Shown: piece after piece, positions 20,656 through 60,800 of the stretch
Layout: each line of letters opens with the position of its first letter
Position numbering within the stretch: position 1 is the first letter of the stretch
Source: Argopecten irradians
Taxonomy: Eukaryota > Mollusca > Bivalvia > Pectinida > Pectinidae
Length of the DNA stretch: 64,000 nt
Direction of reading: 5' to 3'
NCBI RefSeq assembly: GCF_041381155.1
Contig: NC_091139.1
Coordinates: 7,936,383-8,000,382, forward strand
The notes under the pieces: model-generated
What the model was told of the DNA's origin: nothing
What the model saw: the letters and a program-made list of their open reading frames with translations, nothing else
Database searches by the model: none
Position numbers and translations under genes: made by a program

Positions 20656-21489
20656 TTAATCACCCTGTCTCCCAATGGTATCATAAACATTACGTGTAGT
20701 GTCTATTTTTGTTGAATCCAATCCTTCATAATTGCCGTCGTGGTCGGGTATATCTGTAAATACAAACCTATGTCCATGTCAAATATTACATACAACATAT
20801 ATAAGTTAAATTAAGATAATTCAAATCGTTTGTTGATATTTCACATTAAATAGGTATGGATATATTGTAATTCGTGTAACCAGTATATATCATGATATAA
20901 ATATACTTACGATAAGTATGTAATTCAGAAGAAGGCGTTGGTGTTCGAATTAATTTGCCACGCATTCTAAAATATATTCAATTTAATTTATGAAGACATG
21001 GAAAATACCACAAAACTTTAAAACTTGAATTAAAAATCAGTATATATTTAAGTAAACTTACATGAAATACTTGAATAAGTGTTGATTATATCGAGTTCAA
21101 GTCAACTAAATTGAATTATATAATAATTACGGTCAGGATTAGGTGAAATGTATAAATTGGTATGAAGAACTATGGTAGCATGGAATAAACCAGGTACTTT
21201 AAATCTTGACAGCTGAGTCAAACTTACCTCAGGCAGTGTATAATAAGACCTATATCACAGGTGATGGCAACAGCTAGAATGCTGCCGAACACGGCGTATC
21301 CGGTGGTACATTGTGGAGAGGTTTCTACCTGCAATAAATATTACTAAATAGAATTAATTAATTTCGAATTCGATTTCAAAAATGAATACTGAATCGAATC
21401 GCAATGTGGACCATAACTATAAGTTAGAATTGTTGTACTTACTTCTTCACAGTGACATGTCTTTGTCGTGGCTTCTGTCTGTTTCTGTA
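20656..21489 (-). CDS. Gene C stalk, transmembrane and ITAM-like tail exons
   Basis: Four exons of 47, 101, 56 and 98 bp (21443-21489, 21228-21328, 20911-20966, 20656-20753). All have intact splice sites and match the phases of gene B exactly. The tail reads NYEGL, then eleven residues, then YDTIGRQGD and a stop. Apart from YEGL for YDGL, the last 29 residues are the same as the family-frame reading of gene A. This part looks well preserved. Confidence 0.8.
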
Positions 21490-30400: not shown

Positions 30401-31896
30401 AGGTCTGGGTACAGTCTCGTCCGAATGCATGGTAGGTACAGGCTGTAAACGGAACAAAACATATATGTTCGTTCAATGAGGCCACAAATTCTACATGGTG
30501 GTACATTGACTACTTGTTTGTCCCTTTGATATACCGAAGCTGGTATAGTTATCATTTTATTTTATTATTTTGTCTCTGAAATGCGCAGTTTTTACAAGTA
30601 GATCGACGGTTCTGCTTGTGTCTGTCACATCCTCTCATTAAATGTAATAAGTCTAGTGCTAAATTACTAACTATATATACATATGTAATATGTTACGGCA
30701 ACGCAAATAAACAACCATTCCACCTGATAACCCCTGTGAAGGCTGAAAGGCCTTGCGACAAAGTGTTGAGTTTTCTTTTCTTTTTTCATTTAAATACCTT
30801 CGCAAGCAACCACTGGATTTCTACTACATATGCATAACAGCTGCCTTGAGCGGACTACATATTATGTTATCCAGAGGTTTGAAAACACTGAGGTCATAAT
30901 GACCAGACATTAGCGTTGTACGCTTAACTGCAGTTGGCGTTTATTTACGATCAGTATGGAAACATTCTATTCAACAAGATCATTCAAAGATCATTCCATG
31001 GACGTTTGGTGCAGACCGTTATTGCAAATGGCTTATTGTACAAGATCTTTACTAAGAACTGCATAACGATATACAGAAGCCTTTAGCTATGTTATCGGCT
31101 ATGGAAAAAAACACAAATAATAGAATGCTTAAGTGAAGGATGACGGTGAAATAATTGGGATTAGTAAAAATAACAGCAGATCTTGATTCATGCATCATAC
31201 TTACCCTGACTACACGTGCTTCCTTTCCATCCTTCCGTACATCCGACATTATGACATACCCCAGTCATCCCGTCACAGTCGGAATGAGTACAATGACAGG
31301 TCTGTGTACAGTCTCGGCCGAATGTGTGGTTGGTACAGGCTTTATAAGAGAGAGTTTTTTTAGATAATCACCAGTCCTATTTTACGAAATTTAAGTCATA
31401 ATGATTCACTTGTTAAACAAACGTGATTTTTCTAACTTTATGACATAAGAAGTGTTTTTGAGTTGAGGGAGTGTGATATCAATTGGGCAGATATCAACTT
31501 AATTTTAGGTTATATCGCATATCCAAAAAGAATTATATCAGTGCTAAACAAATAATAATTATAACGATTTTGATGTCGCATCCTTTATCACCCCTAAACC
31601 TGGTACAAGGGATGCAATATCAAAATCATCATATCATAACCTTTATGTTGATTTAGCTTTTTTATTATTGTTGTTATTCATCGCAAATAGAAATGATGAT
31701 ATCAGTAGTTAATTGGGATTAGCAAAAATAAAAGTAGATCTTGATTCATGCATCATACTTACCATGACTACACGTGCTTCCTTTCCATCCTTCCGTACAT
31801 CCGACATTATGGCATACCCCAGTCCCCCGTCACAGTCAGAGTTAGCACAATGACAGGTCTGATTACAGTCTCGTCCAAATGTGTGGTTGGTGCAGG
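20656..31896 (-). CDS. Gene C: headless EGF-repeat, ITAM-tailed receptor
   Basis: Intact EGF exons in coding order: 31205-31339, 30308-30442, 29726-29860, 28943-29077, 28449-28580 (132 bp, 44 residues), 28219-28353, 24128-24262, 23274-23408, 22594-22728, 22220-22354. These are followed by the stalk (21443-21489, TKTCHCEE), the transmembrane exon (21228-21328, GYAVFGSILAVAITCDIGLI then IHCLR), the linker (20911-20966) and the tail (20656-20753, YEGL-x11-YDTI, TAA stop at 20656-20658). Exons at 31763-31896, 26518-26652 and about 24859-24990 are damaged, with further fragments near 24.4-24.6 kb. No lectin exons were found upstream. A decayed signal-peptide exon lies at about 33.9 kb. The intact 3' half against a broken 5' half suggests a gene losing or replacing its head. 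Whether it is expressed cannot be told from sequence. Confidence 0.65.
21637..21690. repeat. Short perfect hairpin
   Basis: CTAAGAATATATTC and GAATATATTCTTAG pair perfectly around an inner GGGCACTTTAGCGCCC. It lies in the intron just upstream (minus strand) of the gene C transmembrane exon's neighbour, the stalk exon. Confidence 0.7.
22873..23235. mobile_element. TTAA-flanked MITE in gene C intron
   Basis: About 363 bp with ends TTAAAGATGCTCCATTGCCG and CAGCGGTGGAGTATCTTTAA, imperfect inverted repeats with TTAA at each side. A second copy lies at about 44535-44850, sharing TTTGGTGCATGCGCAAT and GGTGTTTAAT. Confidence 0.65.
24360..24585 (-). pseudogene. Partial EGF exon copies in short tandem duplications
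   Basis: Two truncated copies of the 5' half of an EGF exon lie at about 24361-24432 and 24521-24578. Flanks resemble those of the intact exon at 24128-24262: AGGCTGTAG, AATGTAGGC and TATAAAAACGTTT recur. The unit repeats at about 150-165 bp and the copies lack the 3' half of the module. Confidence 0.6.
24859..24990 (-). pseudogene. Decayed EGF exon in gene C
   Basis: Recognisable EGF module (TNHTFGR, TCHCLNSNCD, GVCKVRGC) that has lost two cysteines (tyrosine in GREYNQ; KNVVK in place of QTCSQ). It also lacks the acceptor and first two residues seen in intact copies. It is probably not spliced. Confidence 0.65.
26010..26460. repeat. Segmental copy of 30420-30970 in gene C
   Basis: Intron DNA running from a remnant of an EGF exon start (CGTCCGAATGTGGGGTAGG) through TGTTTGTCCCTTTGATATAC and ACAAAGTGTTG parallels 30420-30970, whose EGF exon (30308-30442) is intact. 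Here the exon is reduced to a short remnant at about 26028-26054. Confidence 0.65.
26518..26652 (-). pseudogene. Gene C EGF exon with stop and lost donor
   Basis: A 135-bp EGF exon starting ECVGKTFGRDCNQTCHC. It has an in-frame TGA after EVGWG, and the donor reads AT (CAAG-ATAAC) where sister exons have GT (CAAG-GTAAC). Because family exons are symmetric phase 1-1, skipping this one would keep the frame, so it need not disable gene C. Confidence 0.75.
31763..31896 (-). pseudogene. Gene C frameshifted EGF exon
   Basis: The first EGF-like exon of gene C is 134 bp instead of 135. It begins ACTNHTFGRDCNQTCHC normally, then shifts frame after CDG. The GTCC-TCCCGT run seen in sister exons is one base short here. 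Flanks match those of the intact exon at 31205-31339, about 550 bp away, so the two arose by tandem duplication. Confidence 0.7.
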
Positions 31897-31984
31897 CTGT
31901 GATATATCGAACAGAATGAAAGTACATTTTCTATGACCAAACTTATAATTATTAAAGCATCGATTACTATTTTTTAATTCAATT

Positions 31985-39498: not shown

Positions 39499-39808
39499 CT
39501 ACTCAGAAACCTTTTGACCACTATATTTACCAATGCTATCATAAACATTATGTGCAATGTCTATTTTTGTTGAATCTATTCCGTCATAGTTGTCATCGTG
39601 ATCGGGCATATCTGTGAACAAAAAGGTTTAAGGAGTACATAAATTGTCTGTAGACATCCTAAAATATATGAAATATTATTCGACAAAATTTTATGGATCA
39701 TAATTTTTGTTACCTGTCAATATCACTATAAACAGATATAGCAGATACTTACGATATGTATGGAGTTCAGTGGAAGGTGCTGGTGTTCGAATGTTTTTAC
39801 CATACACT
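39499..39808 (-). CDS. Gene B exons 17-18: cytoplasmic tail with ITAM-like motif
   Basis: Exon 39753-39808 (56 bp) encodes a linker with RTPAPSTELHTY. Exon 39499-39611 encodes the tail, with two tyrosines set as YDGI-x11-YDSI, ending SGQKVSE and a TAG stop at 39499-39501. ITAMs are YxxL/I pairs usually 6-12 residues apart that recruit SH2-domain kinases once phosphorylated. Draper and MEGF10-type receptors are known to signal through such motifs. Compared with A and C, this tail has a longer, different C-terminus. Confidence 0.8.
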
Positions 39809-42800
39809 CTAAAATATAATTAAATTAAGTTGTGAAGACGTAGAATGTTATATAACTTGATTGCAGAAGAACCTCTTTAACTGGATATGATATAAAACGA
39901 AACGTTTCAAATAATGTTCAAATAAACGTAAATGGAATAGTAAGATATATCTCGAAGTCTTTTAGTGATATTGTCTCGGCGTGGGAACATTTTTAACTAA
40001 ATTATTAGTCCGCTTCAATTCCAATAGGGATACTTACAATAAGCAGTATGCATATATTTCCTACATATTTTGAGGCTAATTTTCGACACAATGTTGCAAA
40101 TATATAAAGATGTCCGTATAGCTATAGAGCCAAAATCATGTTGAACGATCGAATATCACGTGTTAAAACTTTTGATACTTTTATTCACGCATGTACTTTT
40201 ATTTACGCATGTACAAATGCGACGGTTTTGATCCGAGTTGCTTTCTTATTTAATTTCTAATTTTAGAAAGTGAAGGATTTTATAGAATTGATGGTAAAAA
40301 TTACGTATAATGATCGATCCCAGTCGAAGACGTCTCTGTATCCTTATGCGTATACATATACCACTTTTTGTAGGTATCCCTACTAGCAAGTATTATACTG
40401 TATTATTTATTCTCTCGTTATTTATTAAAATTTTAATGACAAACACACATACATGCATGCATATATCTTTCAGAATTCGGAGTTTCTTTGGATAAATTTA
40501 TACAAATTGTTGACTCTTTTTCCACACAAGGTTATCAATTAAATAATTGGACAGGTATGGGTAGTACTTGGATAGGAAACAGACATATTTTCTGATATAA
40601 TCTTACAATAAATTGTGCATTTATGAATGGAGAACACAACTATATGGTGAAATATATTCTATATTGTAAATAAATTACATAAGATTATACGGATAACACG
40701 TTAATGCCTTAAATAAGCAACTTTTTTTAAGGAATTAAGAAATAAAGGGAGGAAAATGAAATAAAAAATGGTATATTTAAAGGGGCAATGCGATGAAGCG
40801 AATTTCCAAGCATAACTACGAACTTAATTATTATATAACACTAATGTACTACATTCTTTTTTAAAAATAAAACAAAACAAAAAACATTAACAAACTCCAA
40901 AGTAGGTCAGATGTGTATTCTACACCTATAAATATAGTAAATAAGTATGATATACTAATTTTAAGAGTTATTGAGGTAGTTGTAGACAAATGTTAGTCTA
41001 ACCCACTAGTTCAAATTATGGTTTGGCCTACCTACGACATAGCCCCACCAATGGTACAATGACGGAACGAGCTAGTTTCGCAGCATATAGACTGATCATG
41101 GTAGTAGAAAACTTTCATTAGGACATGCTTATTTTCTAGGTAAATCGAAATTTCAATAAACTCATTGACGAAAATGTTTGTTCGATAAATTATCCAACAA
41201 TATAAAATATCCTAATAGGCAAGATAAACTCACCTGATGCAGTGTATAATAAATCCTATATTGCAGCCAATGGAAATTGTGAGGATGCTACCAATCACGG
41301 CGTATCCAGTGTTGTTTTGCGAGTAGGTTGAGCCCTATAACAAACATTAATAAATTATGAATTTAAAAAAGAATACATAAACTATGAAAAAAATCTGCAT
41401 TCAGATATTATTAATACCAAATCGACTCATAATGTGGATCTGAGATATATGGATATTTACACTTACCTCTTCACAATTACAGGTCTTGGCTTTTGTTTCT
41501 GTCTGTTTTTGTGCTGTTAATTATAGAATCGTCAGTTATTACTTATACTAATATGTTATAATAAAGAAACACATTATATAAACTATAATATACAAATACC
41601 TTGACAAAATACATTGAATTGATATTATATTGACGACATTTTATTAACGAAACGTGTTAAACATTTGCATAAAACAAAGGTTTATCACATAGAATAAGAG
41701 CTTAATAAGAGCACATTGAATTATGATTAAACCTTTCAAAACAAGCTTACAGTATGCGTTGCAAGCAACACATGTCCGCTGCCGTCAATGACATTTTCTA
41801 ATATATGGCAAGTTAATTTCATTGCCTAGTTCTGCGATCATTATATAAAATCAAGTTATCGTCCGGAAACTGATTGAAATGATGTACCAATGTACCTTGG
41901 TCACAAGCTCGTCCTGACCAGCCTGCTTCACATCCCACGTGGTGACATGTTCCATTTGTATGGTTACAGCCAGGACTCTGACAGTGACACTCTTCTGTAC
42001 AGTTAGGACCAAAATATCCTGTAAGGCATTCTGGGAAGTGACAAATAAATGAGTAATCATAACGAAAGACGGAGTTGTATCAATTTAAACATGTTTTTAT
42101 ATATTATGATTATTGAACATGTCTAAAGATATATATCAATCCTACCTTGGTCACAAGCTCGTCCTAACCAGCCCGCTTCACATCCCACGTTGTGACATGT
42201 TCCATTTATATGGTGACAGCCAGGACTCTGACAGTGACACTCTTCTGTACAATTAGGACCAAAATATCCTGTTCGGCATTCTACAAGTAAACAACTTTGT
42301 CATGAAAACCGGGATGTTATATACATGTATGATGTTTGTTCTGGATTATTGAGGTAATGGCAGAAATATCAATAATAATGACCACACACAAAATAAAAAG
42401 AGTCTTACCTTGACTACATGTCTGTCCCCTCCACCCTTCCGTACATCCGGGTACTTTACATACCCCAGTCCTCTTATCACAGTCAGAGTTTGCACAATAA
42501 CAGGTCTGGATACAATCTCGTCCGAAAGTTTTACCGATACATCCTGCATTATTTGTAAAAGTTACACTAAGCATAACGTATTATTTTTAAATCGAAGTTA
42601 TTAATGACCAGCATTACATGAATCGTTTTATCCTATCTACAGCTGAGTATGAAAACATTGCACATAATGATACTATCAGACTGTTTTATATGTAAATGTG
42701 AATGATAGATATATAATATTCTAGGCTCACGAAATAGTGTAAACCCAAGGCTTTCCGTCACTTTTTTATAGTAAACCAGAGTAGTTTCTGACAAAAGTGA

Positions 42801-45800
42801 AACTTTTACCGAGAAAATAATACTTTTGTTGACGCCGTGACGTCGCGAGGTTGTATTGCTTACACATATTGTGAAACAAGAAATTGTAATGCGCATGTCT
42901 TATCGACTAGAGTTCAACCACTGATCTCCTTTAGTCGTTCCACGGTAACTAGACTTCCTTCGCGCATGCGTCATTTTTTGAAAACATGGTAGCGATTGGT
43001 TGATGGTTAAACCCATGTTTATCTCTATAAGTAGAACAACATGACAATAGTCATTAGTCAGTTATCGAAGTCGCTTTGTATTACAACAGTAGATACGAGA
43101 GAAAAGGGTATATATTTTGTTTAAGAAATAAGTGAAACACATTTATATATAAACTTACGTTTACTACACGTCGGTCCGGACCACCCTTTCTGACACCCCA
43201 CGTGAAAGCATAATCCGGACACATGATCACATCCGGGAACTTGGCAGTGACATACCTTGGAACAGTTATCCCCAAAGTGATCGTATTGGCATTCTGTGTA
43301 CACACGGAAAAGGCACTTTCAATCAATGATTTCAGCGCAAAGATTTTACTGGAAAACATATTCTATCGATACACATGTTTCTTGATATTGTCATTGTGTT
43401 ACCTTGATTGCACGTATCTCCCCTCCATCCTTCCATACATCCGGGTACCTTACACACCCCAGTCCTCCTGTCACAGTCAGAGTTAGCACAATGACAGGTC
43501 TGGTTACAGTCTTGTCCGAATGTGTGGTTGGTACAGGCTGATCACAAAACAATAATGCAATATTATTGTGATATTGAACAAAAAGCTTTTCCACAAAAAA
43601 AATAATTCACGCTTACTTATTAAGATTTTTCAATGTGGATTTTATAAACATTTAATGACTCAAAATGGGAAAATATTATTGAAATCACAATACTTGATAA
43701 CAGCAGCATACTATTCTTCAAGATATAATTCCTAGTTTCAGGCATAGTTGTTTAACAAATTTTGGTTAATATACAGGATTACATAACACCTTTAAAAGTT
43801 ACCTTGACTACACGAGTCTCCCCTCCATCCTTCCATACATCCGGGTACTTTACATACCCCAGTCCTCCTATCACAGTCAGAGTTAGCACACTGACAGGTC
43901 TGGGTACAGTCTTGTCCGAATGTGTGGTTGGTACAGGCTTTATAAGAGAGAGTTATTTTAGATAACCAGCAGTCCTATTTGACAAGCTTTAAATCAAAAT
44001 GATTCACTTGTTAAACAAACGCGTATTTCTAAATTTATGATATAAACAGTGTTTTTGAGGGAGTGTGATATCATCTGGGCTGATATCAAATTAAATTTAT
44101 GCAATTAGGCATCCTCTGATAAACCTATTTTTGAACAAACACAGAAAACGTACATTATGTTTGTGCGCACTTTTAATTATAAATACAATCAGGGTCACAA
44201 TTATATATTTTCTGTGTACTCAGTTTTTCGTACAAAAATATCACGATTTGATATATTAATAAAGAAAACAAAATACTGTTAAATATATTGCATTACCTTG
44301 ACTACACATGTCGGCCCTCCATCCTTCCGTACATCCGGGTACATTACATACCCCAGTCCTCCTGTCACAGTCAGAGTAAGCACAATGACAGGTCTGGGTA
44401 CAGTCTCGTCCATATGTGTGGTTGGTACATGCTTTAGAGAATTTAGATGTCATTGTATGAAGGTGAATTATTCAGAGAATTATTTTATATAACATGCAGT
44501 CATATTAACCAGACTGTAAACTGTTATTACTTATTAAAGATGTCCATCACCGACAGAGCATAAACGATACTCACCAATTGAACAATAATTGGTGTTTAAT
44601 AGTGTATATATATCTAATTGATACAAAAATAATAAACGACAATTTATTTTGCTTTTGGTGCATGCGCAATCACTACTTCATTCCATATAAGACATAGTGC
44701 CACGGAATTTTTTCGGAATGCAATTAATTGTTTTTAATGTTTTCATCTTGAAGTAAAATAATAAGCTCCAGTTTTCAGTGGCGGTAATGATGTAAAGTAC
44801 ACGTCTGCTCCTGTTTTTGCAAGCGAAATTTATAAAGGAATAATATCTGAAAACTGTCTCAAAAAAAACACGTTTTTTTTTTTTTTTTTTTTTTTGTTTG
44901 TTTTTTTTTTTTTTTTTTGTAAATTCCATATACCTTAAATACACATCGATGCATACCATAAATAAGATGACATAAGAACTTTGAATGTCTTTCTAAACAG
45001 TTTGGATTGATAATGTATTTCTTTCAAGGAATCTTCAAGTGAATTCTGAATGAAGTTGTATTAACATATTTTTCTAGTCGACACCTGGGTAGTTTATACT
45101 GCAATCAATCATGAAAAAAAGACGACACTTAAGCCAAATGAGATGCATTTCAAACAACAAAAACTTTGAGTTCTAGTAACTGTTCAAGTTTGTACTTGGT
45201 CATTCCATGTGGTAAACATATAAATGCAATAAATTAATGGATACCTTGACTACATGTCTGCCCCCTCCATCCTTCCGTACATCCGGGTAACTTACATACC
45301 CCAGTCCTCCCGTCACAGTCAGAGTTTGCACAATGACAGGTCTGGGTACAGTCTCGTCCGAATGTGTGGTTAGTACACGCTGTATAAGAAATAACTGTTT
45401 TCAGATGATCAGCTTAGGTTTTAGACCCTCTGATATCATAAATAACTTCTTAGGACTGGCATTAAGTTGATAAAAACTGTGTATACATCAGGTCATTCGC
45501 TGCGATCTCATTAGCTGATTAAAACGGTTATTACGCTACTTTCGGTACACCTAGTCATTTACTTTTATCTTTGACATAAACCCAAACACCAGAGACACTC
45601 GGTAAAAATGCATGCGCACTGCATGATATTATTGATTATTTATAGTCTTAGGAATGGAATGTATCATATATATAATATATATATATATTTTAATACATAA
45701 AACATTTTACATACACATGTATAAACAACTTGTACATGGCCATCTTTTTTACTCAGCTTCCATTCAATGCTTCTTGTTACTCTTATCAAGTTCTATCATC

Positions 45801-48800
45801 ATTTGAATATAATTATTTTTCTTCGTTTTTTATATACTTTTCTGGCATACCACTATGAAAAATAATCCGAGGATGGCGCGAAAAACAGACGTTATCCTGG
45901 CGTCACAATACAGACATTGACGTTACGTATTGGTTCGGGAAAAAAAATCCTTAAAAATTAATAGAATGGTACATTTAAACATAATTTTGTTTTATGAAAT
46001 AGATTATAAAATTAACTATAAGCATCAATGTAATTATTTTTTTTAATTTCATCGGGATATAAACAAAATTTTGTTTGCACATTGTGTGAATCCGCGTAAT
46101 CTCACAAACAATTTTTTTCATACCCCGATGAAATCAAAAAATAGTGATTTCAATGCTTAGCTTAGCTAAATAGTTTCCTGTGACATAAATATGTCTTTAT
46201 ATGACAGAACTTATCTTATCCGATAGAAAATCTATTTAACCTTTTTTCCATTGTAATTTATAAAATCATTGTATTAACATATTGTTTTAGAAAATATTCT
46301 AGATGTAATATAACCATTGATGTTTTATGATCATAATTATATCTACTGTAAATAATGATTTCCATTACATGGTGGGGATTACTAACTTTTATAATGTTTC
46401 GACTGAAATCTCAAAAAAAAAATAAGTTTAAACTTACATTACATGTATGATGTATGAAATGGCACTTCCATAATACAAGAACATAGTAAATGCATGGAAA
46501 ACAACAAAATTTGGGATTGAAATACAAAGAAACATCGATTTTATTACCGTTGTGGTAATTTCCTTGCAGAGCACTGTCACATTGTCGACTCAAATGTAAG
46601 TCCTCTTGCTTGATATGTGAATAGACAGTATGTTGATTTAACATAGAATTTTGTCAATATTTTTTCCGAAAACTGATTAATTATGATTAACAACATAATT
46701 ATGCAAACATTATATGTAGATTTTGATATCTTTAAGCATAAGTAAGTATCATTAAAATCATATATTTAGATAAATAATAATTAGCTATTCCACAGGGAAA
46801 TACTGTTTTTACTCAACAGAAACGTGCTTTACTTGCAAAACTTCACAGCAAAGAATTTTGTACAATATACAACCACCATTTCGTCACATACACATCTTTC
46901 ATTCATTATTTATAGTTATTTTTATTTTTTACTGTTCTATTATCATATATATTAAAATTGTACCTTTTACATAAAACATTATTATGTATGTAATTTCTTA
47001 ATCGTAATATAACAGACGTATTTGTGTTCAATAGTTCTCTAGAACATTCTGATATCAATTTGACATAAATAGGAGATGAGTTGTAACAATGTAAATAAAT
47101 AAGAAACACATGCAATGGCAAGAAATGGTCACCAGTCATTATATGACAAAATTTAATTTAATTAGAATTACATTGGTAATTCCGCTCCACTATGATTCCC
47201 TACGATACGCTCCAATACAAGATCTAACAACGCCCCGTTCTGGGTCATTTCAGCGTGAAGCGGAATCACAAATCAAATTTTAATTACAATGGATAAACAG
47301 ATAACCAATATCGATAGTTAGAATACAGGTGAACACATCAGATTTAGCATATAACTATACCTTAGAATAAAGTGACAGTATCAAAAGCAGATATTTGTTA
47401 TTACATACAATCCTCTTGAATTATAATATAAATCAGTTAAAAAGCAACTCCAGTATCTGTAACATATAAACAAGCCTCTTTTGTAGTGTATTTTCACCTG
47501 TATTTTCTACATAATATAATATACGTGTTAATCGACAAACAATGTTATATAAGTAATCTGATCTACACCTGCAGTGGAAATATCTTGATCTCATTGAATC
47601 ATGTTGAATCAAATTTAACAATAAACACCATACCTCCGAGCACCTGTACTTCACAAAGCTCTATGACTGCAGTCGTTTTGTTGTAATACATAGCATCCCG
47701 AGGTTCATAGTCGGCAGGTCGTCTGTTGTAGAATATAACATACTGACCAGATACAGGACAGGACAGTGACTGGATATAGGATGGTAGGCCAGGTCCGTGG
47801 TCATGGTAACACAGGTGGGCTGTTCGCAATACCTGGTGGATGTTGTGAGCAACTGAACTGTTTGACACGTAAAGGTAAAATCCGGACATTCGGAATATGT
47901 CTAAAAAGTACAGAATAATAAAACAAAATAAACAATTAAGTAAAACGATAAATTGATAGAAATATAGCAATCTGCGAACGATCGAAATAGAGACGAAGGT
48001 TATTTCGCCTGTACATTAATGACAAATTATCAAAACAGTATTAAAATGTAGCAATAAATAAAAGTAATGGTTGCAGACAAAACATAATATCCTAAATTGA
48101 TTTGTTACTCTAATCTTAAACAAATAAAACTGACGTTGTGCAAGTAAGGGTTAGTCTTTTTCATATAAATTGTACCAGATATAGTATACACAGTTAAATT
48201 GATCTTGATAGTTAATTGGTTTATGATTCACTTCAAATATCACACATGGAAAGGCGACCATTTGTTTGTATTTAACATTTGCCAATAGCAAATTCAATAC
48301 ATTTATTACAATAAGCAATCAAAATTATAAATATTTTACATTATCTGTCTCAGTGATCAAAGTCCGAACCTAGTCTAGCTCTAAACCAGAACTAAACAGA
48401 CGATTGTTCAACATTGAGATGTTTCATTTCCTTTAATACTGGTGCATGAGGAGGGCCAAACACAATGGCGGCACATTAGACAACATGCGGTACCATGACT
48501 AGGAAAAAGAAGCTTTGGATAAGTCGAGTTAAATATAACATACGTACCGCACAACAATTTGAGACCTCTAGGATAAAACCAAATCGATTTTGTGATACAT
48601 AAACACAAATATACTTACACAGCTGTCTGTATACGATGTTAATTGTCTGTATCTGTTTGACACCCCCGAGATCTACTTCCCACCAGGCCTCTGGGTGATT
48701 TCCTATTAGATCTGTATGAGAACAACTTCCTGGTTTTGGTACTACATCTTTTGTTATAATACCATCCACAGCCTTGCCAGGTACATTCTTATTATCAGTG

Positions 48801-51800
48801 GAACTCTGTCGGGTGGTTTTACCATATGAAAGCACTCCTGAAAACGATGAATCACAAATCACAACAGTTCTTCATTTACAATAAAACAAGAATCATTTCT
48901 CACGTGAAAAACGTTTATTGTTTCTTCTATAACAATGTTATCCCCTTTACAAACGTAGTAATCACATTTGCTAACTATTGTTAATAATAATTTGATATGA
49001 TAACATATTCCATTAAGTAAATCAGTATCGAAATGCACAAACATAAATTATTCCTAAAAGACAAATTATATAGATAATTAATTCATATCTATTGTTTCAA
49101 CATCTGTATAGATATTGCCCATCACATTATTTTATTACTGACTCACGTGGTCCCACAAAACAGCTTTGTCCCGACCATCCAGACTGACATCGTCCTCCCG
49201 GACACGCCCCCGTGTCTATATCACACGCTCCGCCCCCGTCACAGTGACATCGGAGACTACAGGACAGTCCCATCCACCCTGTCTGACATCCCTTGACGTC
49301 ACACTGTCCAGTATCCGGGTCACAGCCACCAGTTGTACAGTGACAGGTACCGCCACAGTTATATCCAAACTGACCAACTGGACATCCTACAAGTATAGAG
49401 TACTTCAATACTGTGGAATCGTAATCAAACTTTAAAAAAAAATATCGTTTAATTGATCAGTTCCACACTTCTATATATTGTAACAAAGCGATCATTTGAG
49501 AGCATTCGCGTGAATATTCGATAGATCAAAGCTATACATTTTATCTGCTCTATACATATATATGTTATATACATTATACTTATCATGTACATTTTATTAT
49601 CAAAATACAGACTGGGCAGTTGTAACTGCAAAAACACAAGTATGTTTTATCTGTCTTTAAAAACGCAGTGTGCCAGTTCAAATGTTTTCATCAGTCTGTA
49701 GATCTAAATATCACACCCCTTCAGAATAGAGTTACTAAAGAAAGTATCTGATTCACGTTATTGGTAACGTAACATGTTCTGAATATACATTCAGAGCTCA
49801 GCCTGAGTACTGTAGAAATCGGAACAGCCTTGGCTGCATGGGACGTTAATGCTGTGCGTATGATATATTGCTATATGCTTTAAACATACAAGTGTCAATG
49901 CCCGAGTCTTTGAAAATCGTTTAAAGCCATCTGCTTATGGAGTGAGTCTTTCAAAAACAACTCTGTGCAGTGGAAAGTTTTCTCTATTTAACTTTTCAAT
50001 GTCGTTTCCTTGTGTACATACGTAGATAGATAAGTAACAATTAACAAATAAAAGCAAACATATCAATTTTCTGTAACAATGAAACTTCACAATTACAGTG
50101 CATTTTCATTTTTGTGGGGATAATATAGGTAATGAACACTTCTTTACCTCATTGCCACCAAAATGTTCAACAAAATGTTTATATATTATGACGATAAATC
50201 AAGCATTCTTATATATATACATAGCACTTCCATTTAACAATTCATATATCATAGATTATTTTGTTTAAGACATTTATTTACAGACGAATGCTAGCTTTTC
50301 ATACATTATTCTGAAAACATCTGGCATCTTCGAAACTTTGACAAAAGATGCATATCAACACCTTTACTTCATTGAACATGAAATGTATCAAGAATATTGA
50401 ACTACAGGAAGATTTTGAGACCACAACCTTAGGAAAGATAACGCAAAACAAGCACATGAATATAAGTATGTATTCATTTTGTCTTATGGTGTGAATTCCT
50501 ACTTCTAAAATTCTTCAGACTTCTCAGAGTATAACACTTCAGGTGTCTATATGTGCCTTTTTAAAATCAGATCAAAGTTCAACTAGGTTATATGATCGTA
50601 TAGTGGTTCTTTAATTAATTGTTCCAGCAGTATGTAAACACAGTACAGGAATTCCAAACAGTTGAGTTCCATACAACCAAACAAATACCACCAAGTATGT
50701 CGGCGTTGATGTGAAAGATGCGAAAGTGTTTTTAAAATAAGATAAACATTTTAGGTTTCGTGTCCGAATCGAGTCCGGCAATTATAATGTATACGTAGGT
50801 GTTGTTAGTTTGTATACCGGCACGCAACTCTCACTCATACCCATTGACAGAGGTATTTATAGATAAAATAATATACATGTACAAAATTATTATGTAATAT
50901 TTATTATCCTTAATGTGTGAAAGGTTAAAAATAAAACAGAATATACTTACCATAGACTCGGACCTCACACAATTCGATATATGCTTCAACGCCGATTGGT
51001 CTTTTATTGAAGATTACGACGTATTGCCCTTTTACACGGCATTGCCGGGTCTGGTTGAACGTTGGTAACCCTGGACCGTTGTCATGGTAAACAAAGATGA
51101 CGTCGTGTTCATTGATGGAGCCAAAATTCTGGGTCATTCCGGTGTGGTTTGTTACATACAGACTGTAACCTTTCAACCGATCTGCATCTGTAGTTAAATA
51201 AGACGGATGAGATAAGAGAGATGTTATAGGTGATAGTGAAATATCTAACATTCAACACTTTGTAAACTCTATATAATAAGTTGATTATTGAGTGCCCGCC
51301 GGGTCGTAGCCCAGATCAACTTCAGGAAGACGTAAACTTAGACAGTAAATAACATATCCGTTTAATCATAGCCCGTCCTCATTTATCTTAGGAAAACAAA
51401 ATCTTTACCGATAAAACGACTTATGATATATGATAATTGCATTAACATGTCTATCAAAACGGTAATTAGGTCAGTGTTCTTGTTTTTACTCTCTTGCATT
51501 AAATCAACATTTTATGACAGTTATTGAAAACCTGTAGTAATCATTGGTATATCGATAGTTCAAAAATGTATCGTATTGTTTGAGTTAACTTTAGAATCAT
51601 CAACTCACATGCACGCATACACTATATGACAATCTATATTACTTTCAGTCATTTTAACTTTTTTAAATGCTATATATGTATTTAGTCTGTTTCGATGAAC
51701 AGTTATCTGTACATCAGTGGTCATCAAAGCATATGTTTATCGTATCTATATATTCAAAATCCAATGTATCAAATTTAATCTAAATATCACATGCATTTGA

Positions 51801-52828
51801 TGTTAACGATAATACAGGGATGTTGTGGTATACAACTTACTGTAATGTCTGTACGTGATGTTGATCATCTGTATCCGGTACATCTGTCCTAGGTCTACCT
51901 TCCACCAAGCCTGGTGCCGACCAGGACCTGAGTGGGAACAGTGTCCGGATTCTAAACTGGCCGTCGGTATTCCATCAACTGCTCGACCGGCGTCATAATT
52001 TTGATATGTTGAACTTTGTGTTGCGGTTTTGCGTAAAGCTAAATCTTCTTAATAAATAAAAACACGACACTAATTGATTAAACTGCATGATGCATTTTTG
52101 ATATAGGCTTGAATTTGTTTGTTGTTTTTTTCTTAAAATGTGTTAAATGAAAGCTTTTTGTTTTGTTTGTTTATTTTAACATTCTATTAACAGCCAGGGT
52201 CATGAAAGGACGTGCCAAGTTTGTTGGTGGAGGAAAGCCGGAGTACCCAGAGAAAAACCACAGTCGAGCGGTCAGTACCTGTCACCACATGGGATTCATG
52301 GGATTTTTTTTCATGCGGAAAAAGAGCAAGAAGAAGAATAACCAGAGTAGATATTGCGAGAGATAGCAGAAACACCTTCACTGTCTTGGTTTGGTCAATT
52401 AGTATACACTATGTAGTAGTCATAAAAGAAGAAAATAGAATCGACCAATCAGAATGTATAGATCTAAACCTTCTGTTATATTCCATTAGGGGTCACAAAT
52501 GTTTGACCAAACACTGTTGTTGCCAGATTAGTCAATTTTTAGAACCATACCAGGGTAATCAGTAGTACCAACCAATCAGAGGGCGTAGCGGCCATCTTGA
52601 ATAGTGCATCATGATGAAAGTGTTATATAAACTCGCATGCTGATTATTGCAAAGAGGTAATGAGTATGTAATTTGAAAATGATGCGAGATAAAATGATTC
52701 CACAAAACATTATGAAATTGAGATAATGATATTTTAAAAATATAAACACAGATATATTACTTACTTGAACAGCTAACAGAATATAGCAATAAACATGCCA
52801 CAATAAATATGTTATATATGTTATCCAT
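39499..52828 (-). CDS. Gene B: lectin-headed, EGF-repeat, ITAM-tailed receptor (complete, 18 exons)
   Basis: Complete receptor gene, about 876 residues. Exons in coding order: 52765-52828, 51841-52047, 50951-51187, 49147-49386, 48619-48837, 47634-47900, eight EGF exons (45245-45379, 44297-44431, 43803-43937, 43403-43537, 43159-43293, 42409-42543, 42146-42280, 41896-42030), 41467-41513, 41234-41334, 39753-39808, 39499-39611. Every junction has AG/GT and the frame stays open throughout. Approximate layout: signal peptide 1-21, FTP lectin domain 22-169, EGF pair 170-249, second FTP domain 250-411, eight EGF modules 412-771, transmembrane helix near 794-818, tail to 876 with YDGI-x11-YDSI. The EGF modules resemble Draper/CED-1/MEGF10, which are engulfment receptors at the cell surface. 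FTP domains in other proteins bind fucosylated glycans. A role as a hemocyte phagocytic or pattern-recognition receptor is inferred. A possible poly(A) signal (AATAAA, minus strand) lies at 39477-39482. Exon boundaries are read from motifs, not transcripts. Confidence 0.85.
41234..41513 (-). CDS. Gene B exons 15-16: juxtamembrane stalk and transmembrane helix
   Basis: Exon 41467-41513 (47 bp) encodes a short stalk, QKQTETKAKTCNCEE. Exon 41234-41334 (101 bp) encodes GYAVIGSILTISIGCNIGFI, then IHCIR: a single hydrophobic helix ended by a basic residue. The same two exon lengths, and close sequence, occur in genes A and C. Confidence 0.85.
41896..45379 (-). CDS. Gene B exons 7-14: eight single-module EGF exons
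   Basis: Eight exons, each exactly 135 bp and phase 1-1: 45245-45379, 44297-44431, 43803-43937, 43403-43537, 43159-43293, 42409-42543, 42146-42280, 41896-42030. Each encodes one eight-cysteine MEGF/Draper-type module of 45 residues (pattern CTNHTFGRDC, TCHCANSDC, TGVCKVPGC, EGWRGQTC). Modules 1-4 and 6 are the ANSDC type. Modules 5, 7 and 8 are a second type (ECHCQSPGC, VGCEAGWSG). In both gene B and gene C the QSPGC type lies near the membrane. Confidence 0.85.
42900..43060 (+). promoter_or_regulatory. Promoter-like patch in gene B intron
   Basis: In order on the plus strand: CGCGCATGCG (NRF1-type), GATTGG (inverted CCAAT) and CTATAAGTAG (TATA-like). No plus-strand gene follows. It may be chance, an antisense transcript start, or part of an old element. 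Confidence 0.25.
44535..44850. mobile_element. Second copy of the 22873-23235 MITE, in gene B intron
   Basis: Begins TTAAAGATGTCCATCACCGA and runs parallel to the copy at 22873 over most of its length (ACAGAGCATAAA, AATTGGTGTTTAAT, TTTGGTGCATGCGCAAT). The right end is degraded. A long poly-T tract at 44872-44920 follows. Confidence 0.6.
45840..46163. mobile_element. Short interspersed element, third family (inverted copy with fold-back)
   Basis: The segment 45840-46070 is the reverse complement of the 31985 copy. The end 46017-46163 folds on itself (TAAGCAT...ATTTCATCGGG against CCCGATGAAAT...ATGCTTA), giving a hairpin of about 60-bp arms. Confidence 0.55.
47176..47272. repeat. Small inverted repeat in gene B intron
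   Basis: GTAATTCCGCTCCACT pairs with the complement of GTGAAGCGGAATCAC about 80 bp away. It is short and possibly the ends of a tiny fold-back element. Confidence 0.4.
47634..48837 (-). CDS. Gene B exons 5-6: second FTP lectin domain
   Basis: Exon 48619-48837 (219 bp) encodes GKTTRQSS, GKAVDGIITKDV, GSCSHTD and AWWEVDLGGV. Exon 47634-47900 (267 bp) encodes GFYLYVSN, CPVSGQYVIFYN and ELCEVQVLG. Together they form a full FTP domain. The AVDGIITKDV signature separates this domain from the first, whose equivalent reads AVDGI followed by a different run. The same difference holds in gene D, so the two-domain layout predates the duplication of the genes. Confidence 0.85.
49147..49386 (-). CDS. Gene B exon 4: two EGF modules in one exon
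   Basis: A 240-bp exon encoding 80 residues with regularly spaced cysteines, including GGTCHCTTGGCD, WMGLSC, CHCDGGGACD and WSGQSC. Two laminin-like/MEGF-type EGF modules are fused in one exon, unlike the one-module exons further downstream. Gene D has a matching 240-bp exon at 4139-4378. Confidence 0.85.
50951..51187 (-). CDS. Gene B exon 3: first FTP lectin domain, C-terminal half
   Basis: A 237-bp phase 1-1 exon. It carries GYSLYVTN, QCRVKGQYVVIFN and ELCEVRVYG. These match the second half of FTP domains, where a Cys-Gly-Arg/Gln-Tyr-Val strand and an LCEVEVYG strand close the beta-barrel. I could not confirm the classic fucose-contacting His/Arg set by eye, so sugar binding is not assured. 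Confidence 0.85.
51841..52047 (-). CDS. Gene B exon 2: first FTP lectin domain, N-terminal half
   Basis: A 207-bp phase 1-1 exon. It holds the FTP-family signature: KTATQSS near the start, GRAVDG, CSHSG, and AWWKVDLG followed by IQMINITYR. These mark the first half of a fucolectin/tachylectin-4-type (F5/8-like) domain. The acceptor (TTAAG) and donor (GTAAGT) both fit. Confidence 0.85.
52130..52300 (-). mobile_element. SINE-like mollusc repeat in gene B intron 1
   Basis: In minus orientation it reads TGGGTACTCCGGCTTTCCTC, then CTTGGCACGTCC, ATGACCCTGGCTGTTAATAG and an AAACAAACAAAACAAAA tail. I recognise this run as a common interspersed sequence of mollusc genomes, probably the 3' part of a SINE. 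The recognition is from memory, not a search. Confidence 0.55.
52765..52828 (-). CDS. Gene B exon 1: signal peptide
   Basis: ATG at 52826-52828 opens a 21-codon hydrophobic leader (MDNIYNIFIVACLLLYSVSC, then S) that ends one base into a codon before a GTAAGTAA donor. The length, hydrophobic core and final small residues are typical of a secretory signal peptide. This start is chosen because gene D has an equivalent exon in the same place, with the same phase and the same upstream block. Confidence 0.8.
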
Positions 52829-52982: not shown

Positions 52983-53214
52983 TATGAATTATCACACTCG
53001 CGGTAATAATGTATTTGTTTTACCTGCCATCCTCCGTTTTGGAAAGTTTTATATTCATTGACCGAAAATGTGGTGACTCCTGTGACTAAGAGGAAAAAGA
53101 GAAAATTAAGTTCCGTGATCATTTAGTATCCTAAATTTCAACCTCGACTTTTGAAGGGAATTTTGCACGTAGCAACCCCGCCCATCAGAGCTCGAAGTTT
53201 TTTTATGTATTTAC

Positions 53215-53366
53215 CAGGTAAGGCTGTGGATGGTGTTATAACAAAGGATGTAGGATCTGACGGAAGTTGTTCACATGCATATCCATACCGGAATCACCCA
53301 AGGGGCCGGCGGGAAGGTGATCCCGTAGGCGTCCGACAGATACGGGCGATTAACATCATATAAAGC
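53215..53366 (+). pseudogene. Inverted, degraded FTP fragment
   Basis: Plus-strand fragment with PGKAVDGVITKDV, SCSHAYPYRNHP and GVRQIRAINII, the second-FTP-domain type of genes B and D. The AWWEVDLG core is degraded to a GRREGDPVG-like run, and a stop follows AINII. It lies opposite in strand to every other gene piece, just upstream of gene B, which shows a local inversion. Confidence 0.7.
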
Positions 53367-53483
53367 CAGCCGTATAAGTAGAATGTGAATCTTAAACGGA
53401 ATCATACGGATGTATAAAATTCCATAACCATTAGTAGTATTCGAGAGTATTCTATTCTACAGCACAGCATATATATCTTAGTG

Positions 53484-54973: not shown

Positions 54974-57896
54974 TTTCGCTGCATGTATGGCCGGACCAGC
55001 CTTGCTGATACCCCATGTGATAACACATTCCAGTCACGTGATCACATCCGGGAACCTGACAGTGGCACTCTTTGGAACAATTGGTCCCAAAGTGCTCTGC
55101 AGGACATTCTGTGTATTGATAAGTATATTAAAAATTGTAGCGGGAATCAAATGTTAGACAACATATTACTACATATGTTAAGCTTTTGGTCAATAAATGG
55201 GGTCAAAGATCTTAGTTAAACAAGTTAAACGCAAGGAAAAATAACGTTAAATTAGACGGAATAGAAAAGTTAAAATCCCAAATCAGTTGCCTTTTATGAT
55301 AATGCAATGGGGTCAGTAGGTACAATTCTAGTCAAAGACATTGTTTAAATGTTGATCACTGATTCCCCGCAGTTTATATAGGAAAAGAGTTCTGACGTTA
55401 ATCGACTCAACATCGCAACAATTCGGAATAAAGCAATCATAACGCCCTACCTGCGGGCCGTCGTAGTTTTACATCATTAAAATTCATGTACCACATTTGA
55501 GTTTGCAATGCTAAATTTTGCCATATAATATTTAGTATATTTTCTACGAATTATTTTATCTCAATTCATGAATGCATTCCAAGTTTCTTCCGTATATTGA
55601 AAAAAAAATTTAAAGGTATCTCTAAGTAACATATTGTTATAAAAACATTACATCTAGTTAAACGAATGTATAAATAGTACCAAAAATATCGCGGCGCTTC
55701 ATTTCTATCTACGCTAACCGAAATGACGTCAGCAAATATATATCATATTTAGGTTTGTTTTTCAGTTCGAAAAATCGATTTGTAAATTATATCATTACTT
55801 TTCAATATAGAAACAGTTGTGTTAAAATCGTTTTACAATGTATTTATAAATAAAACAAAGAATTAATCACTTAATCAATCCGGGGTAAATCATTACCTTG
55901 ACCACAGGTCTGTCCCCTCCATCCTTCCGTACATCCGGGTACGTTACATACCCCAGTCCTATCGTCACAGTCAGAGTAAACACAATGACAGGTGTGGGTA
56001 CAGTCTCGTCCGAATGTGTGGTTGGTACAAGCTGTAATTTTGAAGTAAATATTCAAAAACCAATTTTTAAAATCACACATCAAAGATATAAAATTCAATA
56101 TATTTACTAATAAAGATCTTTCTATATGAAAGTGTAAATTAAATGAAAGGAAACAATCGCCTTCTTTTTGTTAAGTTCCGTCTTATTTTAGTTTCATAGG
56201 CCAACTGCGGCATTTTATTCTGAATTATTAAAACTTTTTGCTATATATTTGGTATTTTATTATATTTAAATTCCCAGTTAACCTTATATATACGCATTAT
56301 TTCTTAATCAAGTAATTCAATATTATTGAAGTATATAAGAGGCACTGAGTCGTGAAATTTGAAATATTGTTAACTTCGATTTATGTTCAAACTGTTACCT
56401 TGACTACATGCTTGCCCCTTCCATCCTTCCATACATCCAGGTACTTTGCATAGCCCAGTCCTCCTGTCACAGTCAGTGTTAGCACAATGACAGTTCTGGA
56501 TACAGTCTCGTCCGAATGTGTGGTTGGTACATACTGCGTAACAAAAAACAAGAGATAACGATTAATTCATCTATTGTTTCTGAGTGAATTGTTTTGATAT
56601 AATAATGTAACATAATGGATAAACGGCAAAATTATATAATGTATGCTGACTGTAATATCTAGTTTGCCAGTCTTGTACGAACGTGGGATTTGTGCAGGTC
56701 ACCATGCAAAGGGAGACAAGTGTAGAATATGACACCAGGTACGATACATCTGGTTATACCCATGTCAATATTTATTGTTAGGTAAACACCAAATACCCAT
56801 AGCTGCATGTCAATACATTATTTTGCAAATATTCAAATGCCCACTGTTACATTATTGATATTTCCATACCTCGATCACACGTGTCTCCTGTTAATCCTTC
56901 CGTACATCCGGGTATTTTACATAGCCCAGTCCTCCTGTCACAGCCAGAGTTAGCACAATGACAGGTCTGGTTACAGTCTCGTCCGAATGTGTGGCTGGTG
57001 CATGCTGCGTATCAAAAACAAAAGATAACGAGTAATTCATCAATGGTCTGAGTAGTATTTTATAATAATGTAACTTAATGGATTAACGGCAAAATGATAT
57101 CACGTATGATGACTGTAAATAGATTGCCAGTCTTGTACGAATGTGTGATTGGTGATGGATACATATACCACATTAACACACGTTACAGACCATGACATCA
57201 GATAGGATTCATCTGGTTATATCCCTGTCCTATATCATACCTTGGCTACATGTCTGCCCCCTCCATCCTTCCGTACATCCGGGTACTTTACATACCCCAG
57301 TCCTCCCGTCACAGTCAGAGTTAGCACAATGACAGGTCTGGGTACAGTCTCGTCGGAATGTGTGGTTGGTACAGGCTTGAATTTTCATCATTTTCGAAAT
57401 AAATATTCCATACATGTTTCAAAGCCAAACACCAAACATATAACATATAATATATAAATATAACATATTACTAATAAAGATCACCTATATGAAAGTGTAA
57501 ATTGCATGAAAGGAAACAATCGTGTTCTTAGTGTTAAGTTCCGTCTTATATCAGTTTCTTAAGCCAACTGCAGCCCTTTATGCTGAGTTGTTAAAACTTT
57601 TGTCTATATATTTCATATTTTATAATATTTAATTCCCAGTCAACCTTGTTAACAAACATAGTTATCTAAATCAATTAATTCAATATTATTAAAGTGTATT
57701 AGAGGTACTGAGTAGTGGAAGTCTAAATATTGTAAACTCATGATTATGTTTAAACTGTTACCTTGACTACACGTGTGTCCTTTCCATCCTTCCGTACATC
57801 CGGGTACTTTACATATCCCGGTCCTCCTGTCGCAGTCAGAGCTAGCACAATGACAGGTCTGGTCACAGTCCGGTCCGAATTTCTGGTTGGTACAGG
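54974..57896 (-). CDS. Orphan cluster of six EGF exons between genes A and B
   Basis: Six open 135-bp phase 1-1 EGF exons with good splice sites: 57762-57896, 57241-57375, 56870-57004, 56399-56533, 55897-56031, 54974-55108. The first five are the ANSDC type. The last is the QVPGC type, as in gene B module 5, but it has MGYQQGW where a cysteine is expected. The third has EGLTGDTC, with the usual tryptophan replaced. I found no signal peptide, lectin, transmembrane or tail exon between the end of gene A and the start of gene B that could belong to it. It could be a headless relic, the array of an incomplete gene, or exons spliced into a neighbouring transcript. Intron-plus-exon duplication is evident, since 55.9-56.4 kb matches 57.24-57.76 kb. 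Confidence 0.6.
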
Positions 57897-60800
57897 CTGT
57901 ATTTTAGTAAGCAGGAGGTCTCGTGTTCGACCTCTAGTTGAGACTGATTAAATTATTTAAAATTATATTTTTTTAATTTAATGCGTGCTGTAATATTTTT
58001 TTTATATAAGCAGGAGGTCTCGTGTAATCCTGGTGAATATTAGCCGCAACATATTTATCGACTATTGAAGCGTAAGACATGTATGCCAGATTTCAAGAGA
58101 GTTCAATTTCTACTGAAAGTAGTTATTTAATTGATGTGAAATCATCACTCAGTTAATAAGTTTTGCTGTGTTTAGTCTTTTTCAGAGCGGGGTTATATAC
58201 GGATGTTAGTTGGTTAAATTTCGTTTGTGGAATGAGAGATTGACAATGATTATTTGTATTTTTCATCAAAGATCAAAGATAAATAATCATTATGAAGGTA
58301 CAAAAGGACGTGAATAGAACGTGTTCATGTTGTAGATGTTGTTGAAGCAAAAATTTAGTTTGTCGTCTCTTTGCAAAATAGTAAAAAAGCGTGAATTCAG
58401 ACAAGGTCTGTAATGTTCATGTTCATGTAGGGACCAAGTAATGTTACCAGCGATACATGTGAAGGGATTGGTGTGACCCCTGTAGGGTTTAAAGCGGATA
58501 TGTAACCCTGGTGACATTTGTCATTCGCCTTTTCGGGGCATAACGTCAACACGACGAAAGCGTCCTTGCTAATCTACAAAAACAACAAAATATATTTCTT
58601 TGATCATATCATATATTGGGATACATTCAGATTACAGCTATATAAAAAATCTTTAACAATTACAATAGGTTATGAGAAACTGAGTCTAATGTACTCATAA
58701 ATATTTGCTTTGCTGTATGAAATCTTATTTTGTTCAATGTTAAATTGTGATTGTGACCTGAAATATGCATTTCTCGTTTTGACGACAATAAAGGAGAACG
58801 CGCACTCTATTGGAGCATCTGACTCTTCTCGTACTTCTATCATCAACCTCGTTACAAATGTGGCTTAAAATCGATTTTCGGTTACGCTTAATGATGTATT
58901 ATTGATATTGTTTGTATGTTTAAGCTGCCACGAGGCCGTGATGGATGGATATTTTAGGTGTACCGAGTTGCGTAATTCAAACCCACGCGAGACTGTTACC
59001 AGATACTGAACTTGTGTTGGTGTTTTCTCCTACTACCCCCGTAGTTTTTAAATGAAACTTTGCTGTTGTATAAGATATTAAGCAAACTAAGCCAAACCAA
59101 TTGAGTTATTACTTATATTATATGTACAAGTGCATTTTGGTAATACCAGTTCACAGTTTAAAATTATCATATCACACCATAATATAATGCAATAGGATGG
59201 ACGTAAAAACACATGAATTAATCGATTGAAGTTATTCAAATGTAATGTTAGTGTATAATGCATTGTACCACGCAATATTCACACATTGTGTTAACAATTT
59301 GTCGTACAAAGAAATATTATCTTATCAGACTCTTAACAAAACATCTCACGAAATAAATAATGACAGACCGTTGCCTGACAGGAATGATTCATACATCTAA
59401 CACCACTTCGATCTTATCTAGTAAAATGTACGTATGTGGTTAGGCTCTTCTGTGGTATACGATTACACTGTCACATTGCAATGTACATATTCAGAGATAA
59501 ATTAGTGGAATATCATAGATAGGAAGATACATGTAACAAATAACAAACAAATAAAAACATATATTGATATTGCAATTTTATACTTAAAATATGGAAAATA
59601 GCAAAACAGAAAAATAGGGAAAACAAAACAAGTAAAGTAACATGGACAACATGAAGAAAGGAACTATTTTATACATGAACAACACCGGCGTATTTATACA
59701 TTATGTTTCATGATATCAAGCACAGCTTTTCTTATTTTCTGTTGAATTATGATAACAATAATTAGTCCAATATTGATTGCTAAAATTTCTGATTTTTTTT
59801 TCAAACAATTGCTATGTCTTAATCCCCCTTATTCATACGAAACTTAAAATCACCCACTGAAAATAGTTTCCTAAACAATAATTTACTATTATACGTTTCC
59901 AAAAATAATTAGTTTATATCCATACCACAAACAGTTATAAAATAGTCTGTATGCAGGTAAGTAGTGTATTATGTATTTATGCATCTACACACTTACAAGT
60001 AACAACTTGCCAACCATATTGAATTAATAAGGCCATCCACACTGAGGGTGGCAGAGTTTTTATCAATATATCAACAAATGATACTCCAATATGACGGAAA
60101 ACGTATAGAAAATGCATATACATCATATTTGTTTCAATAAGTATGAACATAACGCCTGTATTGTTATCATAGAAAACACCATATTTTTAACAACGTGAAA
60201 AGCTAAACAATTATATTGTGTATGTGTGGCAGATGGAGGAATTTAAAAATTAACGGTTTCTGTGTGCCAAATTCAAAATAGATTAGGCGCTTAGGGCTCT
60301 AGGGAAATATTCAGGGTTTGTGACCCACTTGAAAAAATTGACCAATAAAATTCCTTCCTCTGTCCACACCTTACACTACCATAATCCTGGTTTATATAAA
60401 AAGGACATAACTCTACTATCAATACCGATATGCAGCAGATAAAGGATAAATTATGTACAATGTAAGCAAAATTAATTATATAAGAATTATAATCTGAGAG
60501 TTGTATTAGGGTATTCCAAGCTAAATGTTCAGCTGCCTTCAGATATATTCATAAATCACAATATTTTAAGTTATTCACTTTATTTTACGTTTATTTTCTA
60601 GACTAAATATACATATAATACTGAATAAAGTGTTCATAAACAACAAAAACATTTGTTATTTCTTGTATAAATTGGAAGTAGTGAACAGTAATGAAATAGT
60701 TTGTATCATCTACTGTTGCAGTATCTGTTGATCATCTGTTATAAGACACATTAATATAGATTTATGTACTGGGTCGGACATAAACAAAGTCACAGTATCA

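Follow-up and report, generated by a model that had tools for sequence, protein, structure and literature searches.

A predicted type I receptor joining two F-type lectin domains, an EGF stalk and an ITAM tail in a tandem gene family of Argopecten irradians

CED-1, Draper and MEGF10, to which PEAR1 and MEGF11 are kin, are engulfment receptors. In the part of PMC8092387 available to us they are described as type I proteins with a stalk of epidermal growth factor (EGF) type and one transmembrane (TM) helix, to which Draper and MEGF10 add an immunoreceptor tyrosine-based activation motif (ITAM). The same elements, an EGF-type repeat stalk, one TM helix and an ITAM, are present in the gene analysed here (the focal gene), which lies on the minus strand, from 52828 to 39499, of a 64,000-nucleotide stretch of the Argopecten irradians genome (contig NC_091139.1, here C6; C6:7936383-8000382), hereafter the window. 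The focal protein differs from these receptors in having two fucolectin-type (FTP) domains in the place of EMI, in lacking NPxY and in matching a stabilin-type EGF profile best. Since EMI and NPxY, two defining features, were not found, we do not file the gene under Draper/MEGF10. The first-pass annotation of this DNA had described a Draper/MEGF-type receptor with a swapped head, of which the stalk, the TM helix and the ITAM stand; the protein would work like Draper/MEGF10, yet, because of the missing NPxY and the stabilin-type profile, it should not be read as a mere Draper whose head has been exchanged.

Dectin-1 and CLEC-2, vertebrate ITAM-type lectin receptors of C-type lectin fold with a single half-ITAM, resemble the focal protein in combining a lectin head and a tyrosine activation motif on one chain. 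The F-type lectins AAA, FBP32, oyster bindin and PmF-lectin share FTP sequence and a His-Arg-Arg triad with both focal domains, and FBP32 likewise has two FTPs per chain. In contrast to these lectins, the focal protein is predicted to be membrane-anchored and ITAM-tailed, holds an EGF pair between its FTPs and lacks both an acidic residue 81 and a Cys82-Cys83 pair. According to the accessible part of PMC5712786, frequent partners of F-type lectin domains are CTLD, pentraxin, CCP, TM and FA58C; Drosophila furrowed/CG9095 is, like the focal protein, built of several domains including an F-type lectin and a predicted TM, but its F-type lectin stands next to CCP and C-type lectin domains instead of an EGF array, and a Nematostella protein combines F-type lectin and EGF-like domains, as the focal protein does, and CCP too, with TM and ITAM going unmentioned in that part. 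The term ITAM does not occur in the text of PMC5712786. With the Nematostella protein on record, the combination of lectin and EGF domains is in itself no novelty, and lectin-plus-TM and lectin-plus-EGF proteins are already known.

For the whole FTP-EGF-TM-ITAM architecture, no description was found among the papers listed from the full-text literature searched, which covers few subscription journals. The design had been called unusual, and this holds for the order as a whole; it does not hold for the gene as a one-off, which belongs to a tandem, partly decaying family. Automated bivalve annotations of MEGF10-like type may, we presume, contain such proteins. In the portions available of three further papers, fucolectin and MEGF are among the expanded families of a vent snail, not joined (PMC7895826), both are named in one section, again not joined (PMC12021676), and MEGF10-family transcripts are among those differing between oyster families of varying parasite tolerance (PMC9892467).

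Gene structure and domain order

Spliced by script, the focal gene comprises 18 exons and encodes 875 amino acids in a single 2,628-base frame with one terminal stop, immediately 3' of which AATAAA can be read. All 17 introns are GT-AG, and every one of the 14 junctions from exon 1/2 through exon 14/15 is in phase 1, the phase typical of freely shuffled extracellular modules. The encoded order is signal peptide, FTP1, EGF pair, FTP2, eight one-exon EGFs, TM helix and ITAM tail. The splice together with profile and PDB matches bears out the FTP-EGF2-FTP-EGF8-TM-ITAM order of the first-pass annotation, along with its coordinates, EGF counts and exon-by-exon reading with intact phases. The six most hydrophobic 19-residue stretches begin at residues 6-7 and 797-803, which are the predicted signal peptide and a single predicted TM helix. 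Exon 1 (52765..52828; this and all following exons on the minus strand), with the start codon and signal peptide MDNIYNIFIVACLLLYSVSCS, is placed by its GT donor, phase 1 and hydropathy, and an ATG-signal frame resembling it is also found upstream of one lectin head on C213.

The lectin head is encoded by exons 2 to 6. The first half of FTP1, including the His and the first of the two Arg residues of the triad, lies in exon 2 (51841..52044; Pfam, PDB match and alignment) and the second half, with one Cys lost, in exon 3 (50951..51187; PDB match and paralog comparison). The EGF pair follows in exon 4 (49147..49386), with a weak EGF profile match below the cut-off (E 0.39), and the two halves of FTP2 in exons 5 (48619..48837) and 6 (47634..47900), both assigned by PDB match and alignment. 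Pfam detects two F5_F8_type_C_2 (galactose-binding) stretches in the whole protein (E 1.1e-22; threshold E up to 0.001). Among PDB chains, FTP1 matches FBP32 (6.8e-25), the eel agglutinin (1.3e-8) and fucolectin-related proteins. The matches of FTP2 are weaker, comprising FBP32 (4e-6 for the whole chain, no single stretch being significant alone) and fucolectin-related proteins (4.1e-5 and weaker), so that the eel agglutinin match is confined to FTP1; exon 6 has no match in NCBIfam.

The fucose triad of the eel agglutinin is given as His52, Arg79 and Arg86 in the accessible part of PMC5712786. We aligned 11 FTP domains of this genome, joined at their true splice ends, with the eel fragment; locus L028 (C6:42.515-42.525 Mb), which was scanned, is excluded here and from the exon-intactness, tail and dN/dS comparisons below. 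The triad is kept in both focal FTPs and in 10 of the 11 domains overall, the exception being FTP1 of C224b, which is without Arg86 and where the splice acceptor is uncertain. A loss of the fucose site was considered and rejected, as the eel chain numbering puts His52 in the conserved C-x-H and leaves the triad intact. Of the cation motif h2DGx, both focal FTPs have AVDG, but the next residue is Ile and not a small hydrophilic one. Given the kept triad, glycan recognition is plausible, and with it sugar binding by the focal head.

The stalk continues with EGF 3 to EGF 10, each in one exon and each assigned by splicing and Pfam: exons 7 (45245..45379), 8 (44297..44431), 9 (43803..43937), 10 (43403..43537), 11 (43159..43293), 12 (42409..42543), 13 (42146..42280) and 14 (41896..42030). 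The whole protein matches EGF_STAB1-2 at E 3.6e-26 in the Pfam run at E up to 0.001. A run at E up to 10, made in two pieces (exons 1-4 and 7-18) and with HMMER filters that remove most matches above about E 0.1, returned eight EGF_STAB1-2 stretches in exons 7-18. A PEAR1-like EGF profile reached E 0.0047, under its cut-off. EMI was found neither in the whole protein (E up to 0.001) nor in exons 1-4 or 7-18 (E up to 10), in line with the earlier proposal that FTP domains replace EMI. Elsewhere in the genome two EMI matches exceed the cut-off, both on C1: the best at C1:43782100 and another, with an internal stop, at C1:13001265. The former exon was considered as part of a canonical EMI receptor, but only one ordinary EGF-like stretch lies in the 10 kb read, so there is no clear MEGF10 at this place.

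A short juxtamembrane linker (exon 15, 41467..41513; splicing) leads to the TM helix (exon 16, 41234..41334; splicing, hydropathy and genome search), a cytoplasmic linker (exon 17, 39753..39808; splicing) and the tail exon with the stop (exon 18, 39499..39611; splicing and tail comparison). The cytoplasmic tail has 55 residues and one ITAM, YDGI-x11-YDSI, which fits the motif Y-x2-[IL]-x6-12-Y-x2-[IL] with a spacing of 11. Because 386 of 20,000 shuffles of the 55-residue tail also yield the expression, the motif alone is modest evidence and its recurrence counts for more: 11 of the 16 tail places found were read, and ten of these 11 tails retain Y-x2-[ILV]-x11-Y-x2-[ILV], although the ten are related and thus not independent.

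A local, partly decaying receptor family

The 846-Mb genome was searched with single exons as queries. At E up to 1, the tail exon and the TM exon gave 12 matches each, and the tail of a relative as query added four tail places, bringing these to 16. At E up to 0.001, exon 4 has at least 147 matches (a lower bound, with 150 of 308 candidates scored), exon 5 has 82 and exon 3 has 24, many of them being general EGF or FTP exons. About 266 kb was read, covering 11 of the 16 tail exons; the others lie on C116, C283 and C634 and at C6:7.895 and C6:7.862 Mb. Lectin exons, some of them broken, lie upstream in the same orientation in eight of the 11 tail units read, namely the focal gene, C213-2, C13, C224-2, paralog A, C6:8.050 Mb and two single-FTP genes at C6:7.909-7.936 Mb. 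In C213-2, exons 3 to 18 are open except for fragmentary EGF exons, with exons 1-2 not found upstream in the stretch read, and C13 is open from exon 4 onward, with no exon 15 match and exons 1-3 not found upstream in the stretch read. In C224-2 the tail and exon 2 are broken and the acceptor of exon 5 was not found, and in paralog A and the C6 8.05-Mb copy the lectin exons are broken. Two heads, at C6:8.0437 Mb and C224:65 kb, have exons 2-6 in good order, and no tail belonging to them lies in the sequence read. Among the copies read, the focal gene is the only one of this architecture that is complete from exon 1 to 18. Related copies whose parts follow one another as in the focal gene lie beside it. 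It is thus one of a group of neighbouring receptor genes, a tandem, partly decaying family evolving by birth and death.

Four neighbours of this kind lie in the window, all on the minus strand. Paralog B (3389..8446) has an FTP, the EGF pair and the first half of a second FTP with splice sites present, exon 6 and later parts not being found downstream up to the next lectin gene. Paralog C (20668..31897) has EGF exons, some broken, a TM and an ITAM tail, and no lectin head was matched between it and the focal gene. An orphan array of six EGF exons (54975..57897) has no matched head or tail, and the TM and ITAM tail of paralog A (62099..63232) belong with broken lectin exons outside the window at C6:8006225-8011771. 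On the opposite strand, at 53211..53375, lies a degenerate FTP remnant with an in-frame stop.

Paralogs B and C, a head without a body and a body without a head, raise the question whether our model computationally fuses two adjacent genes, one with the lectin exons and one with the EGF/TM/ITAM exons, all the more as a 2.25-kb intron separates the halves of the focal gene between exons 6 and 7. This is very improbable. The GT donor of exon 6 is at the identical place in all six copies compared, the focal one included, with the frame continuing for 11 codons past it and then stopping, the 300 bases upstream of exon 7 contain several in-frame stops and no evident signal peptide, and the head-to-body order is repeated in eight of the 11 tail units read. 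On these three grounds we rejected two genes as the principal explanation and retain one gene with an engulfment-type EGF-TM-ITAM body, as first annotated, the same exon order recurring in other copies.

Further loci were observed around and beyond the window. The two single-FTP genes beside it are oppositely oriented (C6:7936497-7924584, minus strand; C6:7909249-7917354, plus strand) and have the order FTP, MEGF-like EGFs, TM and ITAM; in the plus-strand gene the second FTP half alone was found within the sequence read. Matches on C6 at 7843802/7861620 (the tail match with an internal stop) and 7873183/7895078 suggest further plus-strand units of this type. At C6:8026867-8027649 and C6:8034031-8035029, near-identical EGF exons recur every ~216 bases, the unit spanning both exon and intron, and stops interrupt the units lying between these stretches. 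At C213:40083-43363, four near-identical EGF exons spaced by about 1 kb are each preceded by the same hydrophobic frame, weakly like exon 1 (E 0.03-0.05). At L028 (C6:42519650-42521726, plus strand), a lectin with both FTP halves precedes two EGF exons, one of them interrupted by an in-frame stop, and no TM or ITAM was matched in the following 3.3 kb of the locus. C6 carries 41 of the 73 listed FTP matches, from a scan that scored 150 of 171 candidates, and these 41 cluster near 0-1, 8, 13, 16.5 and 25.7 Mb. That the unplaced contigs are plain haplotypes of the C6 stretch read was rejected, the longest blastn matches of four contig stretches being 82-87% identical, with shorter matches reaching 93% (five longest per stretch, 80% floor); the contigs may represent another haplotype of a part of the cluster beyond that stretch.

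Proposed function and its alternatives

Based on the sequence features described above, we consider it probable, if by no means certain, that the focal gene encodes a self-contained lectin-ITAM type I receptor for glycan-triggered phagocyte or adhesion signalling. The two F-type lectin domains at the tip would bind fucose-like or related surface sugars, the ten EGF modules would serve as a stalk, and the 55-residue cytoplasmic tail would bear the ITAM. A multivalent glycan surface would then cluster the receptor, allowing a Src-family kinase (SFK) to phosphorylate the ITAM, and the phosphorylated ITAM would recruit a tandem-SH2 kinase of Syk/Shark type, and so start actin signalling for phagocytosis or adhesion. 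What the sequence shows is the gene structure, the domain order, the retained lectin triad and ITAM spacing, the low dN/dS and the recurrence of the design; the position at the cell surface, the sugar bound, the phosphorylation, the kinase and a role in immune or phagocytic cells are inferred. SFK-ITAM-Syk/Shark signalling operates below the EGF-type engulfment receptors Draper and MEGF10, and NPxY is tied to engulfment in Draper, according to the accessible parts of PMC8092387 and PMC4503800. As NPxY is missing here, the CED-6/GULP branch is not expected. In the available part of PMC4503800, fly Draper without the ITAM phosphorylation site rescues corpse processing and does not rescue migration to wounds; by analogy, the focal tail may have more to do with activation or migration than with corpse processing.

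Several observations weigh against a sugar-binding, signalling receptor of this kind. Residue 81, acidic (RXD) in the motif, is replaced in the focal gene by Tyr (FTP1) and Leu (FTP2), Asp being found in one of the 11 aligned FTP domains (FTP1 of C213-1), and the contiguous Cys82-Cys83 of the eel agglutinin is found in none of the 11; fucose specificity is therefore uncertain. Some F-type lectins depart from the motif, as stated in the available part of PMC5712786. In exon 3, the focal FTP1 has lost a Cys kept in all six paralogs, reading DVIFVYHD where two paralogs have GHLCYHD and four have one- or two-residue variants thereof; the DNA here points to a pair of one-base differences that compensate each other, or to an error in the assembly (window 50949-51188). 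Three of the eight headed units have broken exons (paralog A, C6:8.05 Mb and C224-2), and three of the 11 tail units have no lectin head in the sequence read (paralog C of the window, C12, in which no EGF was found either, and C205, with two EGFs). The second tyrosine is lost in one of the 11 tails (C224), and NPxY is absent from the focal tail as from all 11 tail exons read. Finally, among seven exon types compared, dN/dS is highest in the ITAM exon.

The latter comparison covers exons 2-6, 16 and 18, short sequences in five to eight chosen copies each, decaying ones included, with non-independent pairs, and leaves EGF exons 7-14 outside; the all-pairs dN/dS is 0.28 for exons 2, 3, 6 and 16, 0.36 for exon 4, 0.37 for exon 5 and 0.51 for exon 18, values low overall, which speak for the receptor proposed above. 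The comparison also bears on whether the focal gene has itself lost its function, or is on the way to losing it, within a birth-and-death cluster, as could be supposed from the stops and frameshifts in adjacent copies and from the apparent compensated frameshift that removes the conserved Cys of FTP1. We hold this to be improbable, since each of the 18 exons has an open frame and its splice sites, and the focal gene gives dN/dS values of 0.11-0.68 against its paralogs (37 comparisons over 7 of the 18 exons), although a recent loss in one copy cannot be dated from pairwise values, as constraint is shared by both copies.

A receptor of identical anatomy could also act in gamete recognition, tissue adhesion or symbiont handling and not in immune phagocytosis, which we regard as unlikely but well worth keeping in view. 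A fast-duplicating lectin family is compatible with such roles too; in the accessible parts of the sources, the sperm bindins of oysters are among the molluscan F-type lectins and have diversified for fertilization (PMC5712786), and the expanded fucolectin family of the vent snail is discussed with symbiont acquisition (PMC7895826). Against this, the oyster bindins consist of one to five tandem F-lectin domains, with an EGF-TM-ITAM body unmentioned in the part of PMC5712786 available. An ITAM tail, moreover, as established knowledge has it, is typical of immune and engulfment signalling.

In conclusion, the glycan-triggered lectin-ITAM receptor remains the reading we prefer. More tentatively, and with a likelihood a little short of even, an invertebrate lineage may have built a diversified family of self-contained F-type-lectin ITAM receptors, with a sugar-reading head, phase-1 EGF exons varying the length of the stalk from copy to copy and a fixed ITAM, clustered and of fast turnover, that belongs neither with the Draper/MEGF nor with the C-type-lectin ITAM families. 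Should the focal protein be produced as the gene model predicts, one invertebrate chain would unite glycan recognition with ITAM signalling, an F-type-lectin counterpart, if true, of the vertebrate lectin-ITAM receptors, with copies turning over quickly. Genes labelled solely MEGF-like or fucolectin-like may then be pieces of the same receptor, which is a candidate for how such animals link sugar recognition to engulfment.

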